Part shown: piece by piece, positions 1-20,357 of the stretch
Layout of the letters: the number at the start of each line of letters is the position of its first letter
Position numbering within the stretch: the stretch's first letter is position 1
Assembly: GCF_002735695.1 (NCBI RefSeq)
Contig: NZ_PDZH01000049.1
Location: forward strand, 1 to 32,559
Length of the DNA stretch: 32,559 bases
Direction: 5' to 3'
DNA from: Chitinimonas sp. BJB300
GTDB lineage: Bacteria; Pseudomonadota; Gammaproteobacteria; Burkholderiales; Chitinimonadaceae
Notes under the pieces: model-generated
What the model was told of the DNA's origin: nothing
What the model saw: the letters and a program-made list of their open reading frames with translations, nothing else
Databases searched by the model: none
Program-made: the position numbers and the translations under genes

Positions 1-90
1 ACCTACCATCGCCGACAAGCCCGTTGCTGTCGCCGCACCAAACGTGCTCAGCAAATAGTCGGTGTACAAATCGAGTTCTTTGTTCTTCAT
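1..90 (-). mobile_element. 5' part of a DDE transposase gene (insertion sequence, cut by the window edge)
   Basis: The reverse complement of bases 1-90 is 30 uninterrupted codons from ATG (88-90), beginning MKNKELDLYTDYLLSTFG and continuing through an ATATGLS motif. I recognise this as the typical N-terminus of a DDE transposase family (IS4/IS701-like) common in proteobacteria. The family assignment is from memory, and only about 30 residues are visible. The rest lies outside the window, so I cannot say whether the gene is intact. The IS end must lie between base 91 and the glnE start or slightly inside glnE, and I could not identify its terminal repeat. The insertion is head-to-head with glnE and may have replaced or altered its native promoter. 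Confidence 0.7.
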
Positions 91-139
91 GGCGACAGGT
101 TATCGTATGCACTGCGTAACATCAGAAATTAATTGCGCC

Positions 140-2842
140 ATGCCACCTACACTTGCCGCCTCCTTGAAGCATAGTCGCTATCTACAACGACTATTTGCCG
201 CTCAACCGGAATTACACACCGCTACCGAAGCAGCATTACACAGGGCCTTCAGCCGTGCCGACATGGAGTCCCTGTTGCCGTCAGGGCTCGACGAGCCTGC
301 GCTCAAGGTGGCCGTGCGCAAACTGCGCCAAGCCGTCATGGCACGTATCTTCTGTCGGGATTTGCTGGGACTTGCCCATCTGGATGAGGTGATCGCCACC
401 GTCAGCGATTTGGCCGAAGTGACGATTCTGGCTGCCCTGGAATGCGTCACCCGTCCTGATGAAAGCCGCGGCATGCCAATCGGCGCAGAAAGCGGTGAAA
501 TACAGCAGCTGATCGTAGTCGGCATGGGAAAGCTGGGCGGGCGTGAGTTGAATGTTTCCAGTGATATCGACCTGATCTTTGTCTATCCCGAGGATGGCGA
601 TACCAATGGCCCGCGGCCTATTTCCAATCAGGAATGGTTCAGCCGTGCCGGCAAGCGGCTGATCGCCCTCATCCATGACGTCACTGCCGATGGCTTTGTG
701 TTCCGGGTCGATATGCGGTTGCGACCCTACGGGGATAGCGGGCCGCTGGTGTCGAGCTTCGCTTCGCTGGAAAACTACCTGCTGACCCAGGGGCGCGAAT
801 GGGAACGCTATGCCTGGATCAAGGGGCGTGCCATTACCGACGAAGACGGGCGCTACGCAGTGGCAGGCCCGCATCCTTTGGGTGGCGATGCAGCCGGACT
901 GATGCAGCTGGTAACGCCCTTCGTCTATCGCAAATACCTCGATTACGGCGCCTATGCCTCGATGCGCGACCTACACGGCCAAATCCAGCGTGAAGTCGCC
1001 CGTCGCGACATGGCCGACAATATCAAGCTCGGGCCCGGCGGTATCCGCGAAGTGGAATTCATCGCGCAGGTCTTTCAGTTGATCCGGGGCGGTCGCCGCC
1101 CTGCCCTGCGCATCCGCCCCACCCGCCAGGTACTGGGGGAGTTGACAAGCATGGGACAGCTGGAAGCCCTGACGGTGGTGGAACTGAGCGCTGCCTATGT
1201 GTTTTTGCGTGATCTGGAACACCGCCTGCAATACCAGGACGACAACCAGACCCAGATGTTGCCCACCAACGAGGCGGACCAGGCGCTCATTGCCCAGAGC
1301 ATGGGTTACGCCAGCTGGCCGATATTCATAGCAGCGCTGGATGCACACCGCACGACGGTTGCTCGTCACTTCGAACTGGTCTTTGCCCTACCGCAAGCCG
1401 AAGGGGAAGCGGTGCATCCACTCGCCGGCGTTTGGTTGGGCATTGCAGATGGTCAGACCGTCAGTGAGCGGCTGGCGACGCTGGGCTATCAGTCCCCTAT
1501 CGAAATCGAACGACAACTGGCCGCCATTGCCCAAGGCGGGCGCTATCAAAGTCTGGCAGACAAGAGTCGTCGCCGGCTTGATGCCCTGATTCCTCCGCTG
1601 ATCGAGGTCGCCGCCCATCAGCGCAACCCCGACGCCACGCTGGCGCGTATTCTACGTTTTCTTGAAACCATCAGTCGGCGCGAGTCTTATCTGGCTTTGT
1701 TGGCCGAACACCCGCAAACCCTCAACCGGCTGGCAACTCTGCACAGTGCCAGCGCCTGGGTTGCCGACTACCTGCATCGCCATCCGATTCTGCTTGATGA
1801 GTTGCTTGACGCGCGCATGCTGTACAGCCCGCCCGACTGGCCTCGCCTGGGCCAGCAACTGCGCGACGACCTTGCCGCCGTGGGCGACGACCAGGAAGCC
1901 GAGATGGATGTGCTACGCCATTTCCAGCACCAGCAGGTCTTCCGTCTTTGCGCGCAGGACCTCGCCGGCCAATACAGCCTGACCACCCTTTCTGACCATC
2001 TATCAGACCTGGCCGACTTGATTCTGGCTGTGACTATAGAACGCGCCTGGGCCGAGCTGCCCGGCAAGCACAAGCAACAAGCGACCTTCGCCGCCATCGG
2101 CTACGGCAAGCTGGGCGGTAAGGAACTCGGTTACGCCTCTGACCTCGACCTCATCTTCGTCTATGAGGATGAAGACCCGGAAGCCGGAGAAAAATACGCC
2201 AAGCTGGCCCGCCGCATCATCAGTTGGCTGAATACCGCTACAGCAGCAGGCACCCTATACGAAGTCGACCTGCGCTTACGCCCCAACGGTGCCTCAGGCT
2301 TATTGGTATCGAGCGTGGAAGGGCTGGCGCAGTATCAGCAGACCCATGCCTGGGTATGGGAACACCAGGCGCTGACCCGCGCGCGCTTTGCCGCAGGCGA
2401 CGCAGATATTGGCGCCAAGTTTGAAACCGTACGGCGCGACATCCTCAGCCAACAGCGTAGCCCCACCAAACTGGCGGAGGACGTCGTCGCCATGCGCGAC
2501 AAGATGTTAGCCACGCATCCAGCCAAGCCAAACGACGTGAAATACCTGCGCGGCGGCTTGGTTGATGTGGAATTCATCGTCCAATATCTAGTCTTGGCCT
2601 ACGCAAACCCCCATCCCGCCCTACTTGCCAATAGCGGTAATATCGCACTACTTCGGGTAGCGGCCGAGGCTGGGCTGGTGCCATCGAACCTCGCAGGCGA
2701 TGCACAAGAAGCCTACCGCCGCCTGCGCGAGTTACAGCATAAAGAACGGCTGGATGGCACCGCACCCAGTGAAGCCGCCCTGGCTGCCGTAGCACCCTAT
2801 TGCGAAGCCGTGCGCAGCCTCTGGCACGTGGTATTTGGTTAG
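140..2842 (+). CDS. glnE: Bifunctional glutamine synthetase adenylyltransferase / adenylyl-removing enzyme
   Basis: This cytoplasmic enzyme adds AMP to glutamine synthetase and removes it again according to nitrogen status, under control of PII (established for the family). Two homologous nucleotidyltransferase halves are visible: GMGKLGG near residue 128 with SSDIDLIFVY (D142, D144), and GYGKLGG near residue 654 with SDLDLIFVY (D668, D670). In the family the N-terminal half removes and the C-terminal half adds AMP. From ATG 140 the protein is 900 aa, close to the usual 900-950. The frame is open from base 62, but the first 26 codons overlap the antisense transposase start and are probably IS-derived. 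The family-like sequence starts at MPPTLAASLKHSRYL. There is no strong ribosome binding site before 140. The TAG stop is embedded in the end of a repeat element. Confidence 0.95.
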   Translation: MPPTLAASLKHSRYLQRLFAAQPELHTATEAALHRAFSRADMESLLPSGLDEPALKVAVRKLRQAVMARIFCRDLLGLAHLDEVIATVSDLAEVTILAALECVTRPDESRGMPIGAESGEIQQLIVVGMGKLGGRELNVSSDIDLIFVYPEDGDTNGPRPISNQEWFSRAGKRLIALIHDVTADGFVFRVDMRLRPYGDSGPLVSSFASLENYLLTQGREWERYAWIKGRAITDEDGRYAVAGPHPLGGDAAGLMQLVTPFVYRKYLDYGAYASMRDLHGQIQREVARRDMADNIKLGPGGIREVEFIAQVFQLIRGGRRPALRIRPTRQVLGELTSMGQLEALTVVELSAAYVFLRDLEHRLQYQDDNQTQMLPTNEADQALIAQSMGYASWPIFIAALDAHRTTVARHFELVFALPQAEGEAVHPLAGVWLGIADGQTVSERLATLGYQSPIEIERQLAAIAQGGRYQSLADKSRRRLDALIPPLIEVAAHQRNPDATLARILRFLETISRRESYLALLAEHPQTLNRLATLHSASAWVADYLHRHPILLDELLDARMLYSPPDWPRLGQQLRDDLAAVGDDQEAEMDVLRHFQHQQVFRLCAQDLAGQYSLTTLSDHLSDLADLILAVTIERAWAELPGKHKQQATFAAIGYGKLGGKELGYASDLDLIFVYEDEDPEAGEKYAKLARRIISWLNTATAAGTLYEVDLRLRPNGASGLLVSSVEGLAQYQQTHAWVWEHQALTRARFAAGDADIGAKFETVRRDILSQQRSPTKLAEDVVAMRDKMLATHPAKPNDVKYLRGGLVDVEFIVQYLVLAYANPHPALLANSGNIALLRVAAEAGLVPSNLAGDAQEAYRRLRELQHKERLDGTAPSEAALAAVAPYCEAVRSLWHVVFG

Positions 2843-2971
2843 AACCGGTCTGAAGTCTTGCAAGCCAGGGCAAGACAAGGCAAAAACAACAGGGGAAGTG
2901 GCGTTTACGCGTGGTAAATGCGCATTTCAAGCGTGATTTCAAACTCGTATTGCTGGCGCACAGCAGACTTT
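2839..2971 (-). repeat. Palindromic MITE-like repeat, copy A (right end decayed)
   Basis: This segment aligns over about 130 bases with the reverse complement of 12830-12978. Shared blocks include the end TTAGAACC followed by GTCT, a central GTTTACG..TGGTAAATG, and GCGCA/CAGCAGACTTT at the far side. The centre forms a small stem TTTAC-loop-GTAAA in both copies, with different loop bases. The right end in this copy (after base 2971) no longer matches the terminal repeat, so it is degenerate or truncated. The left end includes the glnE stop codon. The strand is arbitrary: copy B is taken as the + reference. The rest of the gap to 3043 holds nothing else I can name. Confidence 0.75.
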
Positions 2972-3043
2972 CATTAACTGGACTTGCCGCCTTCACACCT
3001 TGTGGCGATAGACCATCAAGTAATCATTTAGGAACGCAGATAG

Positions 3044-5179
3044 ATGAACAAGATTGTCAAATACACACTCTACGGCACCGGCGGTGTATTGGCCCTGGGT
3101 GGGGTCGCTGTTGCCTATATCGCCGCGACCTTCGATCCCAATTCACTCAAGCCGCAGCTTGAACAACTGGTCAAGAAGGAAAAACAGCGCACCCTGAAAC
3201 TCAATGGCCCGATCAAACTCTCGATCTTCCCCAGCATCGGCGCCACGCTTTCCGATGTCAGCCTGTCCGAACGGAATGCCGATGCGCAGTTCCTCCAGGT
3301 CAGCGATGCGCGCGTGTCGCTGCAGTTCTGGCCGCTTTTGAGTAAAAAGGTCATTGTCGACGCCATCGAACTGCATGGGGCATCCGTCAAGCTGCTGCGC
3401 GAAGCCGATGGTCAATTCAACTTTGCCGACCTGCTCAGCAAAAACGAGCCGCCTGACGAAAGCTCACCGGTGGATTTCGATGTATCGCGTATCCGCATCG
3501 ACAAGGTAACCGTGGATTTCGATGACAAGCAGAACCACCGCAAGATCAGCCTGCACGATCTGGCCCTCGCAGCCGATGGGTTGACCATCAAAGGTGCACG
3601 CAATGTCGACTTCAGCACCCATGCGGTGCTCAGCGCACCAAAACTGGATGTACAGCTTGCCGCCAAATTGAACCAGCTTGATATGGACACCGACGCCAAG
3701 CGCTTCCAGCTTGATGACTTCAAGGCCAGCGTCGATGGCAAATTGGCTGCCGATACCATCAAGCTGAATCTGAGCTCACCAAAGCTCAACCTCGCCAGCC
3801 AGGCCGCCAGCGCCGAGGCAGTTGTCTTAGACGCGGTGCTAACCGGTGCGGCCCGGCAGATAGATGCCAAGGTCAGACTCGAAGGCTTGTCGGGCGACAC
3901 CAAGCTGATCGCAGCCCATTCGCTGGCGCTTGATCTGGACGCCAAACAAGCGGGCACTGAAGCCAAACTGTCCATCAGCAGCCCACTGGGTTTGGATGTG
4001 GAAACCTTGGCGCTGAGCCTGTCTCGCCTGGCGATCAAGGGCGACATCACCGCTGGCCCAGCCAAAGCCGCGCCGGTGGATTTGACGGGGCACTTGACTA
4101 TTGGCCTCAAGTCGCAAGCCATCGATACCGCGTTGGCCGGGAAGCTTGATGGCAATGGCCTGACCTTGAATGCTGCCGTCAAAGACTTCAACCAACCGTC
4201 TGTGCGCTTCGATTTGAAGGCAGACGCTATCGATCTGGACCGCTATATCGTTCCGCCCAAGCCTACCAGTGTCGCCGCAGCCGGCGCACCACCGGCAAAG
4301 ATTGATCTGTCGCCACTCAAGACTCTGAATATCGACGGTCGCATCAGCATCGGCCAATTGAAGAAGGCGCCGATTGATGCACGCGATGTGCGCGTCGCCG
4401 TCAGCGCAAAAAACGGTCTGCTGGTCATCCCCACCGCCAGCATGAAGGCATTTGGCGGCGACATCGACGCCAGCGCCACGGCAACCGCCAGCGCCAGCCC
4501 GCGCATCACCATCAAACCCAAGCTGACCGGCGTGGATATTCATACCGTACTCAAGCAGTTTGCCAATTTCGACCGCCTGGAAGGCCGTGGTTTCGTTGAG
4601 GGCAACCTTGCGGTGGAAGGCAGTGATGCCGTGGCGATGAAAAACAGCCTTAGCGGCAGCCTGAACGCCAAGCTGACTGACGGCGCACTCAAAGGCATCA
4701 ACATCGGCAAGACCCTGCGCGATGTCAAAGCCAGCCTGGCCAGTTTCCAGGGCGGAGAAAAAACCATCGCCAGCAGCCAAAGTGAGAAGACTGATTTCAC
4801 GGAACTCACTGCTTCTTTGATGCTGAACAATGGCGTCGCCAGCAACAAAGACCTGAGCATCAAGTCACCATTGGTGCGGGTAAGCGGCGAAGGCGAAGCC
4901 GACCTGAAGAGCGAAACCGTCAATTATCTGATCAAGGCTGCCCTGGTGGCCACCAGCAAGGGCCAGGACGGCGCCAACCGCGAAGACCTACGCGGGCTGA
5001 CCATTCCGGTACGCATCAAGGGCAGTTTCGCCGCCCCCAGCTATTCACTCGACCTGAGCGCCGCACTGAAAGAAAATGCCGGTGCGAAACTGGAAGAGAA
5101 AAAAGCCGAAGTGAAGCAAGAACTGAAGGAAAAGGCCAACGACGCCATCAAGAAGGGCTTGAAGAGTCTCTTCAAATAA
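3044..5179 (+). CDS. AsmA-family inner-membrane/periplasmic protein
   Basis: The 711-aa protein has one N-terminal membrane anchor (about residues 5-27), then a [20 protein letters not shown] segment and a [17 protein letters not shown] segment typical of the AsmA N-terminal domain. A long region of repetitive beta-strand character follows. The AsmA-like C-terminal part (about 470-660) includes the [20 protein letters not shown] stretch. The tail is Lys/Glu-rich and likely helical. AsmA-family proteins are tethered to the inner membrane and are linked to phospholipid traffic and outer-membrane assembly, but the role of this member is inferred from family only. AGGA at 3030-3033 lies about 10 bases before ATG. 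It follows glnE by about 200 bases that contain a repeat, and a terminator follows, so it may be expressed alone. Confidence 0.9.
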
Positions 5180-5190
5180 AGTGCTTAACC

Positions 5191-5222
5191 AGGGCGGGCA
5201 TACAGTCCGCCCTGCGGCTTTT
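5191..5222 (+). terminator. Probable intrinsic terminator after the AsmA-family gene
   Basis: AGGGCGG (5191-5197) pairs perfectly with CCGCCCT (5207-5213) across a 9-base loop. It is followed after five bases by a short T run (5219-5222). It starts 11 bases after the AsmA-family stop. The T tract is short, so termination may be partial. Confidence 0.6.
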
Positions 5223-5306
5223 CGCGCACGGCAGCTTCCAGCATGGTCCCGCAGCAGCTACACTCACAGACCACCCATCGCAGTGCAACATTACGCTTGG
5301 CCACAC

Positions 5307-6617
5307 ATGGAACACCTCGACCTTTCCCCTTGCAGCACCGCCGCCGGCACCATTCGGCTCCCTGGCTCCAAGAGCATCTCCAACCGTACCCTTTTGCTGG
5401 CCGCGCTTGCGCATGGCACCACCGAGGTGCGTGGCCTGCTGGATTCCGACGACACTCGCCGTATGCTGGAAGCCTTGCAGGCGTTGGGCGTGGAGTGGGA
5501 AGAAGTAACGGAGCGCGACTATGTCGTGCATGGCGTCGGCGGCGCTTTCCCGGTGAAGTCGGGCGAGCTGTTCCTGGGCAATGCCGGCACCGCTTTTCGC
5601 CCCTTGACTGCGGCCCTGGCGCTGATGGACGGCAACTACACGCTTAAGGGCGTTGCCCGCATGCACGAGCGGCCCATCGGCGATTTGGTCGATGCCTTGC
5701 GCAAACTGGGTGCACAAATTGATTACCTGGGCCAGGAAGGTTACCCGCCCCTGCGCATCCGCCCCTGGCAGAACCCACACGATGTCACACCCGGGTTGCA
5801 TACCCAGGTGCGCGGTGATGTATCGAGCCAGTTCCTTACAGCTCTGTTGATGGCCCTGCCGCTCGGTGGCGAGGACGCCCGCATCGAAGTGGTCGGCGAA
5901 CTGATTTCCAAACCTTATATCGAGATCACCCTCAATCTATTACGCCGATTTGGCGTGCATGTGGACCGTCGCGGCTGGAACGAATTCCACCTGCCTGCCC
6001 GCCAGAGCTACCACAGTCCCAAGACCATCCGGGTAGAAGGCGATGCCAGCTCGGCGTCGTACTTCCTGGCGGCAGGGGCGATTGGCGGTGGCCCAGTGCG
6101 GGTTGAAGGCGTCGGCAACAGCAGCATCCAGGGCGATGTGAAGTTTGCCGAGACCCTCGCCCAGATGGGCGCGTTGATCGCCATGGGTGAGGATTGGATT
6201 GAGGCTACCGGCCCCATCGTGGCGCGTGGCAAGAAGCTCACGGCCATCGATGCCGACCTGAACCATATCCCTGATGCTGCCATGACCATTGCCGTACTGG
6301 CGCTATTCGCCGATGGCACGACCACCATCCGCAATGTCGCCAGCTGGCGCGTCAAGGAAACCGACCGCCTCAGCGCCATGGCCATCGAGTTGCGCAAGGT
6401 GGGCGCGGCGGTCGAGGAAGGCACAGATTACATCCGCATCACCCCGCCTGCCGCCCTCGTACCCAATGCCGTGATCGACACCTACGACGACCACCGCATG
6501 GCCATGTGCTTCTCGCTGGTAGCCGTCGCAGGCACGCCGATTCGTGTCAACGACCCCAAATGCGTCGCCAAAACCTTTCCAGAGTACTTCGAGGTATTGG
6601 CCCGGGTTGCGCGTTGA
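5307..6617 (+). CDS. aroA: 3-phosphoshikimate 1-carboxyvinyltransferase (EPSP synthase)
   Basis: This enzyme transfers enolpyruvate from PEP to shikimate-3-phosphate, the sixth step of the shikimate pathway, in the cytoplasm. From ATG 5307 it is 436 aa. [10 protein letters not shown] (K22, S23, R27) binds substrate, [15 protein letters not shown] is the class I glycine-rich loop, and PDAAMT contains D323. [11 protein letters not shown] contains K350 and E351, and DDHRMAM lies near the C-terminus. D323 and E351 keep the same offset (10) from E. coli D313 and E341. The frame is open back to 5181, but that part crosses the upstream terminator and does not resemble the family, so the later start is chosen. 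GNAG-T-AFRP is the ordinary glyphosate-sensitive class I pattern. Confidence 0.97.
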
Positions 6618-6675
6618 TTTGGCCCAACACGGTCCGCAACGGTAGAATTGCCGATTAATCCGTTGCGGCTCGTCT

Positions 6676-6710
6676 CCTCTCCCCTCGGGAGAGGGCTAGG
6701 GTGAGGGGAC
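6676..6710. repeat. GGGAGAGG hairpin repeat in the aroA-argS gap
   Basis: CCTCTCCC (6676-6683), a 3-base loop and GGGAGAGG (6687-6694) form a perfect hairpin. It continues as GCTAGGGTGAGGGG. This purine-rich hairpin, ending in a GGTGAGGGG-type tail, is a widely dispersed intergenic sequence in proteobacterial genomes (from memory). There is no T run, so I do not call it a terminator. It occupies most of what is notable in the 180-base gap. Confidence 0.55.
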
Positions 6711-6719
6711 GCCGCCTGA

Positions 6720-8513
<1,794 letters not shown>

Positions 8514-8552
8514 GCCCTACAGTTAGCGGATTTTGTCTGATCAATACGTTAT

Positions 8553-8580
8553 AAAACGGTCGAGATAACTCGGCCGTTTT
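8553..8580. terminator. Bidirectional intrinsic terminator between argS and the oxidoreductase
   Basis: AAAACGG-T-CGAG (8553-8564), loop ATAA, then CTCG-G-CCGTTTT (8569-8580) forms a 12-pair stem with one T-G wobble. It has an A run on one side and a T run on the other. It serves argS (+) and the convergent oxidoreductase gene (-, stop at 8591). It is nearly identical to the terminator at 10653-10685. Confidence 0.85.
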
Positions 8581-8590
8581 ACTGAGTGGA

Positions 8591-9628
8591 TCACGCCATC
8601 TGGCTCAACCTGACCAGCGATTTGCCAAAACTCTTACCGCTATTGAGATCAATCAGCGCTTGCGGCGCTGCTGCAAGGCCGGTCGCAATGGTATGCCGCC
8701 ATTTGAGCTTGCCTGCACGCACCAGATCAGCCGCAGCCCGCTGGAAGCGTTCGGTCAGATCAAAGTGATCCATCACGATAAAGCCTTCCATATGCAACTT
8801 GCGCGTCACAATATTGTACAAGTTGGCAGGTCCCGACTTGGGAACAGTATCGTTGTACTGGTCGATCATGCCGCAACAGGCAATACGCCCAAATTCGCGC
8901 ATGTGATCAAGCGCAACGCGTAACTGTTCGCCGCCTGCATTATCCAGATAGACATCGATGCCATCGGGAAAAGCACGGGCGACTGCGCTGTCGAAATCCG
9001 GCGCGCGGTAATTGATGGCGGCATCAATACCCAACACCCGTTCCGTCCACGCACGCTTTTCCTCGCTGCCGGCTGTTCCTACAACATAACAACCCATCGC
9101 CTTAGCGAAAGCACAAGCAGCAGCGCCAACCGCACCCGTGGCACCGGAAATAAACACGCGCTCTCCGGGTTTCAAGTTGGCGATGCGAAACAATGCCACG
9201 TATGCCGTCAAGCCAGGGACGCCAAGTGCGCCAAGATGAGATTCAAGTGGAACTTGCAAAGAAGGCGTAACGTCGAGGCGTTGGACACTGGTCGCTGCTG
9301 CCACATAGGCTTCACGCCACCCAAACATGCTGGTCACATAATCACCCGCTTGCAGCTCGGGGACATTTGACGTGACAATTTGCCCGATTGCGCTACCTTC
9401 AAGCACACGGCCCAACTCAAATGGCGGGATATAACTCTGCCCTTCGTTCATGCGGCCACGCATATAAGGGTCCACCGACATCCAGAGATTACGCACCAGT
9501 ACCTCACCCGCTTTGGGCGCAGGGACCGGTACCTTGACCAACTCGAAATTCTCCAAGGTTGGCAGCCCGCTTGGGCGGGACTTCAATCGGATTTCACTGG
9601 AAACAACTGCTGAAGATTCGCGCTGCAT
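8591..9628 (-). CDS. CurA-like NADP-dependent oxidoreductase (medium-chain reductase, zinc-independent)
   Basis: The 345-aa protein belongs to the curcumin/prostaglandin-reductase branch of medium-chain dehydrogenases/reductases. The N-terminal GroES-like part contains LWMSVDPYMRGRM, typical of the group. The Rossmann part has SGATGAVG at 161-168 for NADPH binding. No structural zinc cysteine cluster is seen. The enzymes reduce activated C=C bonds of alkenals and enones, and the true substrate here is unknown. It is divergent from a LysR regulator 102 bases away, which suggests, but does not prove, control by it. ATG is at 9626-9628. It resembles YncB/CurA, but I do not assign the symbol. Confidence 0.88.
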   Translation of the reverse strand: MQRESSAVVSSEIRLKSRPSGLPTLENFELVKVPVPAPKAGEVLVRNLWMSVDPYMRGRMNEGQSYIPPFELGRVLEGSAIGQIVTSNVPELQAGDYVTSMFGWREAYVAAATSVQRLDVTPSLQVPLESHLGALGVPGLTAYVALFRIANLKPGERVFISGATGAVGAAACAFAKAMGCYVVGTAGSEEKRAWTERVLGIDAAINYRAPDFDSAVARAFPDGIDVYLDNAGGEQLRVALDHMREFGRIACCGMIDQYNDTVPKSGPANLYNIVTRKLHMEGFIVMDHFDLTERFQRAAADLVRAGKLKWRHTIATGLAAAPQALIDLNSGKSFGKSLVRLSQMA

Positions 9629-9694
9629 GGGTTATTACTCCGTCGTTTAAGTACGGTGCCCAGTCTAGTTTTGTGTGCGGTATCCTGACAGTCG

Positions 9695-9720
9695 TTGGCA
9701 TCTCAATAGATTGTTGCCAA
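9695..9720. promoter_or_regulatory. Candidate LysR-type operator in the divergent promoter region
   Basis: TTGGCA (9695-9700) and TGCCAA (9715-9720) form a perfect 6-base inverted repeat separated by 14 bases. It lies 10 bases before the LysR-family start and about 67 bases from the divergent oxidoreductase start. A dyad in the shared gap is the usual site for LysR autoregulation and target control. Overlap with the translation start region of the regulator would fit autorepression. Assignment is inference from position and symmetry only. Confidence 0.4.
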
Positions 9721-9730
9721 ACTGACAACG

Positions 9731-10630
9731 ATGATCGACCCACAGTTACTCAAGATCTTTTCTCGCGTCGCGCAGCTTGGCAGTTTCAGCCGCGCCGCTG
9801 CCCATTTGAAAATCGATAAATCGGCAGTCAGCCGCGCCATTGCCAAGCTTGAACAACAACTCGGCATGCGCCTGCTCTACCGCAATACACGCAAGCTGCA
9901 CCTGACCGATGCCGGTGCGATGGTGTGGTTTGAGGCACAGAAGATCGATGAGTCGCTCGATATGCTGGAAAATTACGCCGAGACCTACACCGGCGAGGTC
10001 ATGGGGGTATTACGCGTATCGTGCTCATCGGGGTTTGGCCGCGTAGCGTTGTTGCCCGTCATTGATGCATTTTTACGCAGCCATCCCAAAGTTGAACTGG
10101 AACTGGAATTTGAGGACCGCTTTATTGATTTGGTTGCAGAGAATATCGACGTGGCGCTGCGCCACTCGCATTTCCTGCCGGACTCAAGCCTTATCGCGCG
10201 TCCCTTGCGCGAAAACCCCCGCATACTCGCCGCCGCACCAACCTATCTGGCGCAAGCCAGTGCGCTAGCCTCCCCTGCCGACCTGATCACGCATACATGC
10301 TTAGCCTACGGCAAGGCAGCGGTACGAATGGATAAATGGGCATTCGATATAGATTCGCAGCAGATTGAGGTCCAGATTCAGCCCCATATCACTCTCAACG
10401 ATACCGAAGCGCTGGTGCGCCTTGCCGTCCGTGGCATAGGCGTCGTCTTGCTCGACCGATTCCTGCTCGAATCAGAGATAGCCTGCGGCTCGCTGGTGGA
10501 AGTGTTGCCACAGTACCGTCCCACTCCCGGCTTCCCCATCTACGCGGTCTATCCTGCCCGCAAATGGCTACCCCGCAAAACAGCAGCCTTCATTGAGTTC
10601 ATTGATGAGCACCTGAGCGTTAACGGATGA
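9731..10630 (+). CDS. LysR-family transcriptional regulator
   Basis: The 299-aa protein has the normal LysR length. The N-terminal winged helix-turn-helix (about 1-60) reads FSRVAQLGSFSRAAAHLKID then KSAVSRAIAKLEQQLGMRLL. An effector-binding domain follows from about residue 88 (TGEVMGVLRVSCSSGFGR), with the usual LARPL/NDTEALVRLAVRGIGV features of the AaeR/DsdC-like substrate fold. It lies divergent to the CurA-like gene, so that gene is its likely target. Almost no Shine-Dalgarno sequence precedes ATG 9731 (the upstream bases are CTGACAACG), so initiation may be weak. It ends just before an intrinsic terminator. Confidence 0.93.
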   Translation: MIDPQLLKIFSRVAQLGSFSRAAAHLKIDKSAVSRAIAKLEQQLGMRLLYRNTRKLHLTDAGAMVWFEAQKIDESLDMLENYAETYTGEVMGVLRVSCSSGFGRVALLPVIDAFLRSHPKVELELEFEDRFIDLVAENIDVALRHSHFLPDSSLIARPLRENPRILAAAPTYLAQASALASPADLITHTCLAYGKAAVRMDKWAFDIDSQQIEVQIQPHITLNDTEALVRLAVRGIGVVLLDRFLLESEIACGSLVEVLPQYRPTPGFPIYAVYPARKWLPRKTAAFIEFIDEHLSVNG

Positions 10631-10652
10631 ACTGATACCGTCTGCTGACAAT

Positions 10653-10685
10653 AAAAAACGGCCGAGATAATTCGACCGTTTTTTT
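10653..10685. terminator. Bidirectional intrinsic terminator between lysR and the potF-like gene
   Basis: AAAAAACGG (10653-10661) pairs with CCG plus a T run (10676-10685). The inner CGA/TCG pairs surround an ATAA loop. It ends transcription from lysR (+) and from the convergent PotF-like gene (-). Its core differs from the 8553-8580 terminator at only three of 27 positions. Confidence 0.85.
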
Positions 10686-10698
10686 GGAGGAACCTGAC

Positions 10699-11799
10699 TT
10701 ACTTGGCTGTCTTGAACTGATTGAACGCCTTGGTCAACGTCATTTGCGTCGGCTGATCTATCACTGCCAAGGGTTGCAGTTTCTGTAATGCCTCAGCAGC
10801 GGGGTAGATTTTGGTGTCACTGCTAATCTTCTTATCCACCAGCGACGTAGCCTTGGCATTCGGATTGGCGTAACTCACCGTATTCGAAATCGCAGCCACC
10901 ACCTTCGGGTCGAGAATGTTGTTGATCCACTTGTGGGCGTTGTCTGCATTCTTACTGTCCTTCGGAATCGCCATCACATCCAGCCACATGATGGTGCCCT
11001 TGGCCGGCACCATATACTCCACATTCTGCGGCTTCTTGGCGGCGGCAGCACGATCACGCGCAATGTAAACGTCACCGTTGTAAGCCATGGCCACGCACAC
11101 ATCGCCATTGGCCAGCAAGTCAATGGGCGAGTCGTTAAACACGCGTACGTCCTTACGCACTGCCTTCAGGGTTTCCAACGAGGCAGCCACATTGGCCTTG
11201 GAAAAGTCATTCGCCGGCTTGCCGTTGTAGATGTTGGCCATGGCGAACAGATTCTTCGTCATAGTGATAAACGAAATGCCACAGCTTTTAAGCTTGCTGG
11301 TGTATTTGGGGTTGAACACCAACTCCCACTGGTCAGCCGGCATCGGCTCACTACCCAATGCCTTCTTGACCTTATCGACATTGATGCCAAACGCCATGGT
11401 GCCCCACATATAAGGCACCAAGAACTTATTGCCAGGGTCCACCGTCTCCAACTTCTTCAAGAACTCCGGGTTCAGGTTGCCCAAATTAGGTAGTTTGGTC
11501 TTGTCGATAGGTTGGAAAATCTGGGCTTGTATCCACTTGCCCGCATAATCCGCTGACGGGTAAACCACGTCATAGCCCGACTTGCCCGTCAACAACTTCG
11601 ACTGCAGCGTTTCCACACTTTCAAACAAGTCGTACTTTACTTTCAGCCCCGATGCCTTTTCGAAATTGGCTATCGTATCCGGGGCGATGTAGTCGTTATA
11701 GTTGTACACATTCACCGTACCTGCAGCATGCGCAGCAACAACAGACGACAGAGCAATCACGGTGCCGAGCAAGGTCGGCTTGATGCGGAACTGAGCCAT
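10699..11799 (-). CDS. PotF-like periplasmic polyamine-binding protein
   Basis: This is a 366-aa substrate-binding protein of a spermidine/putrescine-type ABC importer. The signal peptide is MAQFRIKPTLLGTVIALSSV followed by VAAHA-A, with cleavage expected after about residue 24. The mature protein starts with the family hallmark VNVYNYNDYIAPDTIANFEKA and continues with LTGKSGYDVVYPS and PYMWGTMAFGINVDKV. ATG 11797-11799 is preferred because it directly precedes the signal peptide. The 26 codons upstream are not signal-like. No ATPase or permease genes (PotG/H/I type) are adjacent, so it is an orphan binding protein. It could feed a transporter elsewhere or act as a sensor. Putrescine versus spermidine specificity cannot be decided by eye. 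Confidence 0.9.
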   Translation of the reverse strand: MAQFRIKPTLLGTVIALSSVVAAHAAGTVNVYNYNDYIAPDTIANFEKASGLKVKYDLFESVETLQSKLLTGKSGYDVVYPSADYAGKWIQAQIFQPIDKTKLPNLGNLNPEFLKKLETVDPGNKFLVPYMWGTMAFGINVDKVKKALGSEPMPADQWELVFNPKYTSKLKSCGISFITMTKNLFAMANIYNGKPANDFSKANVAASLETLKAVRKDVRVFNDSPIDLLANGDVCVAMAYNGDVYIARDRAAAAKKPQNVEYMVPAKGTIMWLDVMAIPKDSKNADNAHKWINNILDPKVVAAISNTVSYANPNAKATSLVDKKISSDTKIYPAAEALQKLQPLAVIDQPTQMTLTKAFNQFKTAK

Positions 11800-12038
11800 G
11801 AGAACTTGAACTCCGGAAGAGCGTTGAACGATAGTGGATAAACTGCCCCACCCATCTTTTATTATTAGCGGTTCCAAGCGCTTGAGCGCTAGATTTATCG
11901 GCTCGTATTACACCATGCAAAAAGCTTGGAATGGGAATATTTTCGCCCGTTTTGCGGCACTTTTTGTAGCTTGCCGCAGCCTAAGTCACCCTGACATTTT
12001 TAAGATAAGATAGCGGGCTTTTCCCGGTAACTATTCTC
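11800..12038. promoter_or_regulatory. Divergent promoter region between the potF-like gene and thyA
   Basis: This 239-base gap separates two divergent starts and must hold both promoters. The best + strand candidate is TTGAGC (from about 11883), 18 bases, TATTAC, with four of six matches in each box. It is weak. A doubled AGCGCT pair (AGCGCT-TG-AGCGCT) and a short CGGG/CCCG hairpin just before thyA are visible. I see no gene, riboswitch or strong operator. Confidence 0.35.
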
Positions 12039-12833
12039 ATGCGCGCCTACCTAGACCTACTGCAGCACGTCATTGACCACGGTACCGAGAAAACCGACCG
12101 TACCGGCACCGGCACGCAATCGGTGTTTGGGCACCAACTGCGCTTTGATCTATCGCAAGGCTTTCCGCTGGTCACCACCAAGAAAGTCCATCTCAAATCC
12201 ATCATCCATGAACTTCTGTGGTTTTTGCGGGGCGATAGCAATATCGCCTATTTGAAAGAACATGGCGTACGCATCTGGGACGAATGGGCTGACGCCAATG
12301 GCGACCTCGGGCCCGTCTATGGTGTGCAATGGCGCAGCTGGCCCACGGCGGACGGGCGGCATATCGACCAGATTTCCCAGGTCATCGAGCAAATCAAACG
12401 CACGCCGGACTCACGCCGGCTGATTGTCTCGGCCTGGAATGTGGGTGAAATCGACCACATGGCATTGCCACCTTGCCACGCCTTTTTCCAGTTCTATGTC
12501 GCCAATGGGAAACTGAGCTGCCAGCTTTACCAGCGCTCGGCCGACCTCTTCCTTGGCGTACCCTTCAATATCGCTTCCTATGCTTTGCTGACGCTAATGG
12601 TGGCCCAGGTCTGCGGCCTTGCGCCTGGTGAGTTTGTCTGGACGGGGGGCGATTGCCATATCTATTCCAACCACAGGGAACAGGTGCAATTGCAGCTGTC
12701 GCGCCAGCCCTTGGCATTGCCAACCATGAAGCTAAATCCAGCAGTGAAAGATATCTTCAGCTTCAAATACGAAGACTTTGTGCTCGAGGGGTATGAAAGC
12801 CATCCGGCCATCAAGGGCGTTGTGGCCGTCTAA
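12039..12833 (+). CDS. thyA: Thymidylate synthase
   Basis: This cytoplasmic enzyme makes dTMP from dUMP using methylenetetrahydrofolate. At 264 aa it has exactly the E. coli length, and the catalytic cysteine in [13 protein letters not shown] falls at C146, the same number as in E. coli. [15 protein letters not shown] (here [10 protein letters not shown]), [29 protein letters not shown] and GDCHIYSNH are all present. It begins at ATG 12039 after about 240 bases of divergent promoter region. No folA follows. Instead the TAA stop merges with the terminal repeat of a palindromic element, which may form the 3' end of the mRNA. Confidence 0.98.
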
Positions 12834-12978
12834 GAACCTGTCTAAAGTCTGCTGCGCGTCGGCAATATGGCGTTGAAAACACCCTCGGAATGCTCATTTA
12901 CCATTCGTAAACTCCGCTTCCTCAGCTGTTTCCGCCTGATGTTGCCTTAGCTCGCGAGAATTTAGACGAGGTTCTAAG
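12830..12978 (+). repeat. Palindromic MITE-like repeat, copy B (complete)
   Basis: This is a 149-base element with near-perfect inverted ends. The left end is CTAAGAACC then TGTCTAAA. The right end, read in reverse complement, is CTTAGAACC then TCGTCTAAA. The inside is also palindromic (CGCG, GGCAA/TTGCC and GGCG/CGCC pairs) and closes on TTTAC-CATTC-GTAAA, so the whole RNA could fold into one long hairpin. It has no coding capacity. It begins inside the thyA stop codon. Copy A (2839-2971) is in the opposite orientation and also begins at a stop codon. Confidence 0.8.
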
Positions 12979-19973: not shown

Positions 19974-20357
19974 TTAAACCGTAATTTCTAGCACAACAAA
20001 TGCAAGCACATGTTCACGTTCATCTGATAAAGATAAATGCGTTCGGCTAATCGCTCGCTGCGCAAGATAAGCACTAATGGCTGGATCAAAATACAGATTG
20101 GGCTTACCCATACCATTGTGAGCAATCTGTATGCCCGCCAACGTTATCGGTGGGCGTATACCTGTCCCCAGCGCCTTTGCAAAAGCCTCTTTCGCCGCCC
20201 AACGCTTAGCAAGAAAACGCCCGCTGTTGCTGTCTGCCACAAAGGTCGACCGCTCATCTGGCCCCAATACACGCGCAAGGAAGCGCTCGCCGTGCCGTTG
20301 ATAGGCTTGCTCGATACGCACTACCTCAACCAAATCCGTGCCAATGCCAAAAATCAT
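19974..20357 (-). CDS. acpS: Holo-[acyl-carrier-protein] synthase
   Basis: This enzyme transfers 4'-phosphopantetheine from CoA to apo-ACP, activating fatty-acid synthesis. At 127 aa it matches the family. MIFGIGTDLVEV carries the Mg-binding D8, and RFLAKRWAAKEAFAKALGTG carries E57. SLSDEREHVLAFVVLE ends the protein. The ATG overlaps the recO stop by ATGA, so it is translated from the same mRNA. In many betaproteobacteria pdxJ lies between recO and acpS, but it is absent here. Confidence 0.97.
   Translation of the reverse strand: MIFGIGTDLVEVVRIEQAYQRHGERFLARVLGPDERSTFVADSNSGRFLAKRWAAKEAFAKALGTGIRPPITLAGIQIAHNGMGKPNLYFDPAISAYLAQRAISRTHLSLSDEREHVLAFVVLEITV

Follow-up and report, generated by a model that had tools for sequence, protein, structure and literature searches.

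A 140-bp palindromic element with IS5-type ends at the stop codons of thyA and glnE in Chitinimonas sp. BJB300

Introduction

Bacteria are already known to carry short, palindromic, mobile repeats close to the ends of genes, and the YPAL elements of yersiniae reportedly cluster just after stop codons. Here we describe a noncoding, multicopy repeat of about 140 bp, two copies of which stand at the ends of glnE and thyA in a 32,559-nucleotide contig of Chitinimonas sp. BJB300, a member of the Burkholderiales (NZ_PDZH01000049.1, assembly GCF_002735695.1; this whole stretch is called the window below). We regard it as very probable that both segments are copies of a 140-bp miniature inverted-repeat transposable element (MITE) moved in trans by CTNAG-targeting IS5-family DUF4096 transposases, and that copies at stop codons are tolerated or kept.

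YPAL, also called RU-2, is a 168-bp palindromic intergenic mobile repeat; it is described as expressed together with upstream genes, perhaps affecting their transcripts, and targets of dyad symmetry are reported for it (PMC2229807). The termini of the GTAG-type repetitive extragenic palindromic (REP) sequences are reported often to supply a TAG stop codon (PMC3733652), and a study of Pseudomonas fluorescens describes the intergenic repeat R178, 101 bp long with internal 11-bp inverted repeats, and repeats placed tail to tail (PMC2718517). The term "stop codon" is absent from the main text of a 2024 review of prokaryotic MITEs (PMC10969869). No description of the present family was found among the papers listed by literature searches that covered few subscription papers, and a search of published text with the letters of the hairpin core gave, among the matches listed, no paper whose title points to this repeat.

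Results

Copy B (141 bp, positions 12834 to 12974, plus strand), whose core strand is the thyA strand, directly follows thyA (12039 to 12833, plus strand; thymidylate synthase, NCBIfam NF002497) and shares 132 of 140 positions with a consensus built from 56 copies. Its left terminal inverted repeat, GAACCTGTCTAAAGTCT (12834 to 12850, plus strand), resembles the ends of IS5-family transposons, and the conserved hairpin core AATGCTCATTTAC-loop-GTAAACTCCGCTTC occupies 12889 to 12920 (plus strand). The flanks read C-TAA on the left and TAA-G on the right (12830 to 12834 and 12974 to 12978), with the target-site duplication TAA at 12831 to 12833 and 12975 to 12977 (both plus strand); the left TAA, within the CTAAG at 12830, is the thyA stop codon. 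Copy A (2842 to 2971, minus strand) is more diverged, with 106 of 140 positions identical to the consensus, and matches the family profile at positions 11 to 140 (E = 1.2e-30); about 10 bp are gone at its decayed far end, hence it has no second inverted end. The TA of its left target triplet TTA (2839 to 2841, plus strand) and the first element base, G, make up the TAG stop codon (2840 to 2842) of glnE (62 to 2842, plus strand, start codon not settled; glutamine synthetase adenylyltransferase/adenylyl-removing enzyme, NCBIfam NF008292).

The two copies lie in opposite orientation and agree at 101 of 140 aligned bases, which bears out a sequence-only reading of the window that had called the two segments homologous and inverted. 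Its description of the hairpin was also correct: copy B is a palindrome, long and imperfect, closing on the apex stem TTTAC-loop-GTAAA, and copy A keeps this stem with other loop bases. The extents that it gave (2839 to 2971 and 12830 to 12978) mark the right segments but are too wide for the element proper, since CTAAG belongs to the target. Similarly, its proposal that an element end supplies part of each stop codon stands for glnE, where the third base of TAG is the element's G, whereas the TAA of thyA is wholly a host target triplet.

The repeat is abundant in its own genome, far beyond the two copies first noticed. A DNA search gave 43 matches from the best 40 of 274 candidates, 40 of them at 92 to 100% identity and 3 weak ones at 70 to 75%, and the 21-base end, with up to three mismatches, occurred at 255 places (127 forward and 128 reverse) versus none for a reversed control pattern, far above chance. 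In a 432,559-base sample, composed of 20 stretches of 20 kb and the window, a profile search found 29 copies, of which 22 were full length; this scales up to an estimated 240 to 320 copies in the 4.74-Mb genome. Identical 3-bp flanks, all TNA, were present in 51 of 61 paired copies (TAA in 24, TTA in 21, TCA in 4, and TGA in 2), with C preceding TNA in 48 of the 61 and G following in 49. Together, the preceding C, the TNA duplication, and the following G define the target as CTNAG.

The congeners offer element-free comparisons at both window genes. Four of six congeners have the end of thyA at the same codon (the remaining two, on the minus strand, gave no usable C terminus), and two of the four (L269 and L270) keep an unoccupied GTC-TAA-G site at the thyA end, an empty CTAAG of the kind that the sequence-only reading had suggested looking for in relatives. 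glnE ends at the equivalent codon in five of six congeners (the sixth, on the minus strand, was unread). In G005 and G006, the glnE stop codon TAA is directly followed by an element of about 267 bp with GAGCCTGTTCAATGTCT ends (L289:2104-2370 and L290:2104-2369); elements sharing the MITE's type of end thus appear to have inserted at the glnE stop on more than one occasion. The inserted element, bounded by GAGCCTGTTCAATGTCTTTTC, is palindromic inside and by eye unrelated to the MITE, and its right flank has no TAA repeat.

The terminal inverted repeats of the MITE are held in common with IS5-family insertion sequences. A decayed 791-bp element in the same genome (L118:1389-2179, contig C81) has the MITE's ends, TTA repeats, and a DUF4096 match; a 57-amino-acid piece of this relic is 81% identical to a Xanthomonas hortorum transposase and finds IS5-family transposases on plasmids. 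The Aromatoleum and X. hortorum plasmid elements, annotated as IS5 family, have AAAGTCT-type ends and a CTNAG target, as does a homologous unannotated element in Tistrella, and a Pandoraea plasmid element, also annotated as IS5 family, has the ends ...GCGATCT/...ACGATCT, a variant seen on MITE copies in other genomes. Around each of these four elements, TTA, TGA, or TAA is duplicated. A transposase of the DUF4096 class, which we take to be the IS427/IS1031-like group of the IS5 family, probably did the moving, and mobilization in trans is suggested by the ends and the target. This agrees with the earlier view of a noncoding mobile element in need of a transposase supplied in trans. No flanking pair of ends was found at the 19 PF01609 loci of the genome, and among all 33 loci scanned the sole end pair belonged to a PF13340 locus. 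Contigs C344, C148, and C95 share their starting point within a piece of the 791-bp relic, and the draft may hide more copies of this piece. Besides, one MITE copy (L085:1325-1464, contig C296) is inserted into a relic of the presumed partner element.

We examined placement relative to genes in 63 copies, namely, 59 from regions around 62 of 69 perfect-end places (copy B apart; 70 such places occur among 100 listed of the 255), L002, L006, and the two window copies; 13 ends without a partner were excluded. None of the 63 copies lay wholly within a called gene. The duplication fell exactly on a stop codon in eight, the last base of the stop was shared in three, and in six the gene reads into the element. 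Background CTNAG sites in the sample comprised 559 coding, 207 intergenic, and 22 at stops. With the six read-ins excluded, 11 of 57 copies were at a stop versus 22 of 229 background sites (P = 0.019; Fisher, 0.040), a figure that is circular because the window copies are included; without these two, it is 9 of 55 (P = 0.078; Fisher, 0.117). The less biased 432.6-kb sample gave 6 of 29, or 4 of 27 without the window copies. Orientation at stops was unbiased (four same, seven opposite). Thus, the stop-codon link in the own genome is weak. Copies nevertheless cluster near gene ends, and the intergenic gaps that they occupy are shifted toward tail-to-tail ones: 18 were in tail-to-tail, 32 in head-to-tail, and 5 in head-to-head gaps, versus 22, 108, and 52 background sites (P = 0.0002), the 8 copies without a called neighbor on one side being left out.

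Among 41 genomes searched (the own genome and 40 relatives), four matched the MITE: the own genome, G022, G035, and, weakly, G024. G022 and G035 belong to the same order but to other families, with MITE identity of 74 to 84%; none of six congeners and none of three further genomes of the same family matched. The distribution across relatives is patchy. The exact core, AATGCTCATTTAC-N3-8-GTAAACTCCGCTTC, was found in at least 116 stretches of a named-genome collection (a scan and not a census), and 69 of 80 titles among them were Pseudomonas, the others being Stutzerimonas, Billgrantia, Rahnella, Gallionella, Nitrosomonadales, unplaced gammaproteobacteria or Pseudomonadaceae, and one Pedobacter. 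This last core (L133) sits on one 6.7-kb contig of a metagenome-assembled genome labelled Pedobacter (Bacteroidota), possibly mis-binned. In an even draw across the class the core was rare (5 of 229 genomes, own included). E. coli genomes had no match to the Pseudomonas-like core and phages gave no match, and two plasmid records matched in part.

The inner hairpin, common to beta- and gammaproteobacteria, is carried with several end types. Of 118 core copies, 58 had ends scoring as IS5-like (4 of these also as another type), 24 had GGCTCTGTACGAAA alone, 4 had CAGGCCGTTGAAAAAC alone, 2 had GGCTGTGTGAAAAC, and 30 had none of these types. No transposon-sized pair of type 2 or type 3 ends, which could have identified the parent insertion sequences, was found in the 116 stretches; type 4 was not looked for. 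In L131, L140, L160, L174, L179, L181, and L194 from the named genomes, an extra insert lies inside one arm, between core and end, and these inserts look like nested further small elements.

Beyond the own genome, stop codons and orientation were far more closely tied to the element. Of the 118 core copies, 47, mostly from Pseudomonas, passed the test for an IS5-like end and TNA after removal of edges and repeats. Their triplet lay on a stop in 26 cases, compared with 90 of 487 noncoding CTNAG sites (P = 2e-8; Fisher, 1e-7), and the orientation of those 26 relative to the gene was the same in 24, opposite in 1, and both in 1. In G022 and G035, 12 of 18 copies were at a stop (9 same, 2 opposite, and 1 both). 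We also merged alike-flank copies of all end types into a flank-independent set, counting a stop when it lay between about -20 and +6 relative to the boundary. Of these 107 sites, 55 had a stop (41 same, 7 opposite, and 7 both); those with an IS5-like end gave 19 same, 2 opposite, 4 both, and 21 none, and those without one gave 22 same, 5 opposite, 3 both, and 32 none. The own-genome ratio of same to opposite (4:7) differs from that of the pooled others (33:3; P = 0.0005). Since CTNAG reads almost alike on both strands, the orientation bias calls for another cause. Because the burst of alike copies in the own genome shows no such bias, we infer that the one-way placement at stops elsewhere reflects selective retention.

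Of seven alike-flank groups, four have a boundary stop in all members, one in a single member of two, and two in none. L167/L188, L154/L192/L201, L143/L218, and L158/L226 are sets of copies from different genomes whose flanks are alike and which occupy the same gene end, with a stop at the boundary. Such alike-flank copies at the same gene ends suggest long retention or repeated insertion.

The stems covary, as the earlier reading had proposed to check. The covariation frame retained 114 distinct rows after 22 of 138 copies were dropped (indels, low arm identity, and edges), and alignment A2 (n = 73) combined 71 hand-picked copies of 116 kept with the two window copies. In A2, 93.4% of cells pair. 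Two-sided changes amounted to 259 cells versus 92 in shuffles, with 0 of 500 shuffles as high (the shuffles ignore relatedness); further pair types numbered 40 versus 34.7, with 6 of 500 as high. Sliding the structure lowered pairing to 34 to 48%, and the gap-free frame gave 86% Watson-Crick pairs versus 61% shuffled and 23 to 36% slid. Core columns are set by the search pattern and are uninformative; the informative pairs lie outside the core. One-sided G-U changes were confined to 7 cells, and mispairs among 2,052 cells were 35 G-U and 62 A-C. The near absence of G-U, with A-C not rarer, is not what an RNA helix usually shows and accords with a foldback at the DNA level or repair from arm to arm. 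Outside the search pattern, one C.T and one T.C mismatch each persist in 109 of 114 rows.

On the RNA side, the sense strand was the more stable in 18 of 78 named-genome copies near gene ends and in 26 of 42 own-genome copies (not significant); RNA-strand stability as the cause of orientation is unsupported by the named-genome count. The T-tail score was better on the sense strand in 53 versus 24 named-genome copies (P = 0.008) and in 17 versus 25 own-genome copies. A terminator scan (GC stem followed by a T run) gave no site in copy B and, in copy A, one weak 6-pair site at the far end on the plus strand. Rfam gave no match above the gathering score in the window, and a known Rfam RNA family was rejected as the identity of the repeat. 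A codon-usage gene caller placed 25 genes in the window but overlooked a likely one, presumably acpS-like, at 19974 to 20357.

Discussion

We propose that a transposase would recognize the ends GARCCTGTYYAAAGTCT and insert into C-TNA-G, duplicating TNA. Stop codons in such a context would be natural targets, because TAA and TGA are themselves TNA and CTTAG contains TAG, and an insertion at a stop would rebuild it and leave the protein unchanged. The hairpin may then end or shield the upstream transcript, so that stop-codon copies would be selectively retained. Targeting to stop codons, one of the two roles suggested by the sequence-only reading, holds in this form as CTNAG insertion, with a strong stop association in the named-genome set and in G022 and G035, but it is weak in the own genome; placement relative to stops is likewise not random overall, whereas in the own genome it is close to what the target alone predicts. 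The other suggested role, a 3' mRNA structure, gains from the strong covariation, but scarce G-U pairs and the seldom more stable sense strand disfavor a plain RNA stabilizer; a 3'-end RNA role of the hairpin is possible.

Other accounts have to be set against these data. One of them takes the repeat for a functional 3'-end RNA element, a bidirectional terminator or exonuclease barrier that only looks mobile and whose mRNA job sets location and orientation. It would explain the covariation, the 41:7 bias at independent sites, which persists at 22:5 without an IS5-like end, the small sense T-tail excess in the named genomes, and the four of seven alike-flank groups with a boundary stop in every member. 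We nevertheless consider it unlikely, given the TNA duplications, the finding that one species has alike copies by the hundred and none of six congeners has a match, and the 7 one-sided against 259 two-sided changes; besides, the sense strand is rarely the more stable in the named genomes, the own genome has neither a sense T-tail excess nor an orientation bias, and copy B has no terminator pattern. Insertion neutral to stops, in which the link would be due only to the CTNAG target and to the loss of insertions at other places, is possible but somewhat doubtful. It accords with an own-genome stop share near background and with copies that avoid genes and head-to-head gaps, but it does not account for the 26 of 47 copies at stops in the named-genome set, where the background is 18.5%, nor for a 24:1 orientation bias at a near-palindromic target.

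A further question is what maintains the pairing. Template switching in a foldback could copy arm onto arm, producing covariation by palindrome repair without selection; this deserves to be taken seriously, and we lean only slightly away from it. Two-sided changes with hardly any one-sided intermediates are what it would leave, as is the rarity of G-U and A-C mispairs alike, whereas the C.T and T.C mismatches left unrepaired in 109 of 114 rows each disfavor simple repair. Insertion into dyad-symmetric, terminator-like gene-end targets, as reported for YPAL, would also place copies near gene ends, but in folding the joined empty sites do not surpass background CTNAG sites (52 versus 204 sites; P = 0.18) or 60 background sites near gene ends (P = 0.57), which makes this very improbable, and dyad-symmetric targets were rejected for lack of excess folding.

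The preferred reading, an IS5-type MITE with stop-codon copies tolerated or kept, also meets resistance. In the 374-contig draft genome, no intact partner transposase with the MITE's ends was found, but one decayed copy and fragments elsewhere, and DUF4096 had no match in G022 or G035. The own-genome stop excess shrinks without the window copies, and orientation there is even; the strand stabilities in the named genomes and the terminator scans of both window copies do not favor a transcript role. A few members of the 47-copy set, whose end test allows three mismatches, carry another end (e.g., L135), and for end type 2 (TAG-GGCTCTGTACGAAA) stops are not enriched (4 of 25 versus 41 of 291 background sites; P = 0.48). 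Retention, moreover, is read from a comparison of different organisms, and different transposases in different hosts could differ in bias. A stop at the element edge could sometimes be made by the insertion; the element-free comparison is that of thyA and glnE.

The coincidence of repeat edges in stop codons gains a mechanism, in which a CTNAG-targeting transposase would meet stops that rebuild themselves. The hairpin core is kept across beta- and gammaproteobacteria while the transposon-like ends change, and the burst of alike copies here versus scattered, diverged copies elsewhere makes selection for transposon-borne gene ends testable. A bolder version, which we consider unlikely, is that one hairpin module has spread through these classes on different insertion sequence ends and been kept one way on stops as a portable gene-end device.

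Among known systems, the closest are the IS5-family elements with a DUF4096 transposase, which have the same ends (GARCCTGTTCAAAGTCT or the CGATCT variant), the CTNAG target, and the TNA duplication of the MITE, but are about 790 to 850 bp long with a transposase gene, whereas the MITE has 140 bp and no gene. YPAL/RU-2 makes duplications of 3 to 26 bp, compared with 3 bp here; homology to it was rejected, the score against one RU-2 copy being equalled or exceeded by 281 of 300 shuffles. GTAG-type REPs are 20 to 40 bp long and linked to RAYT tyrosine transposases, unlike the present terminal inverted repeats and TNA duplication. R178, as described, is like the inner hairpin in size, and the P. 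fluorescens repeats are like the MITE in their tail-biased placement. The NEMIS/Correia, ERIC, and RUP MITEs are, as here, short multicopy hairpins with terminal inverted repeats, but with TA-type termini (PMC2229807), whereas the present element has TNA. The window is thus accounted for by an ordinary kind of element, the IS5-type MITE; the unusual features are the common core with changing ends and the one-way placement at stop codons elsewhere.

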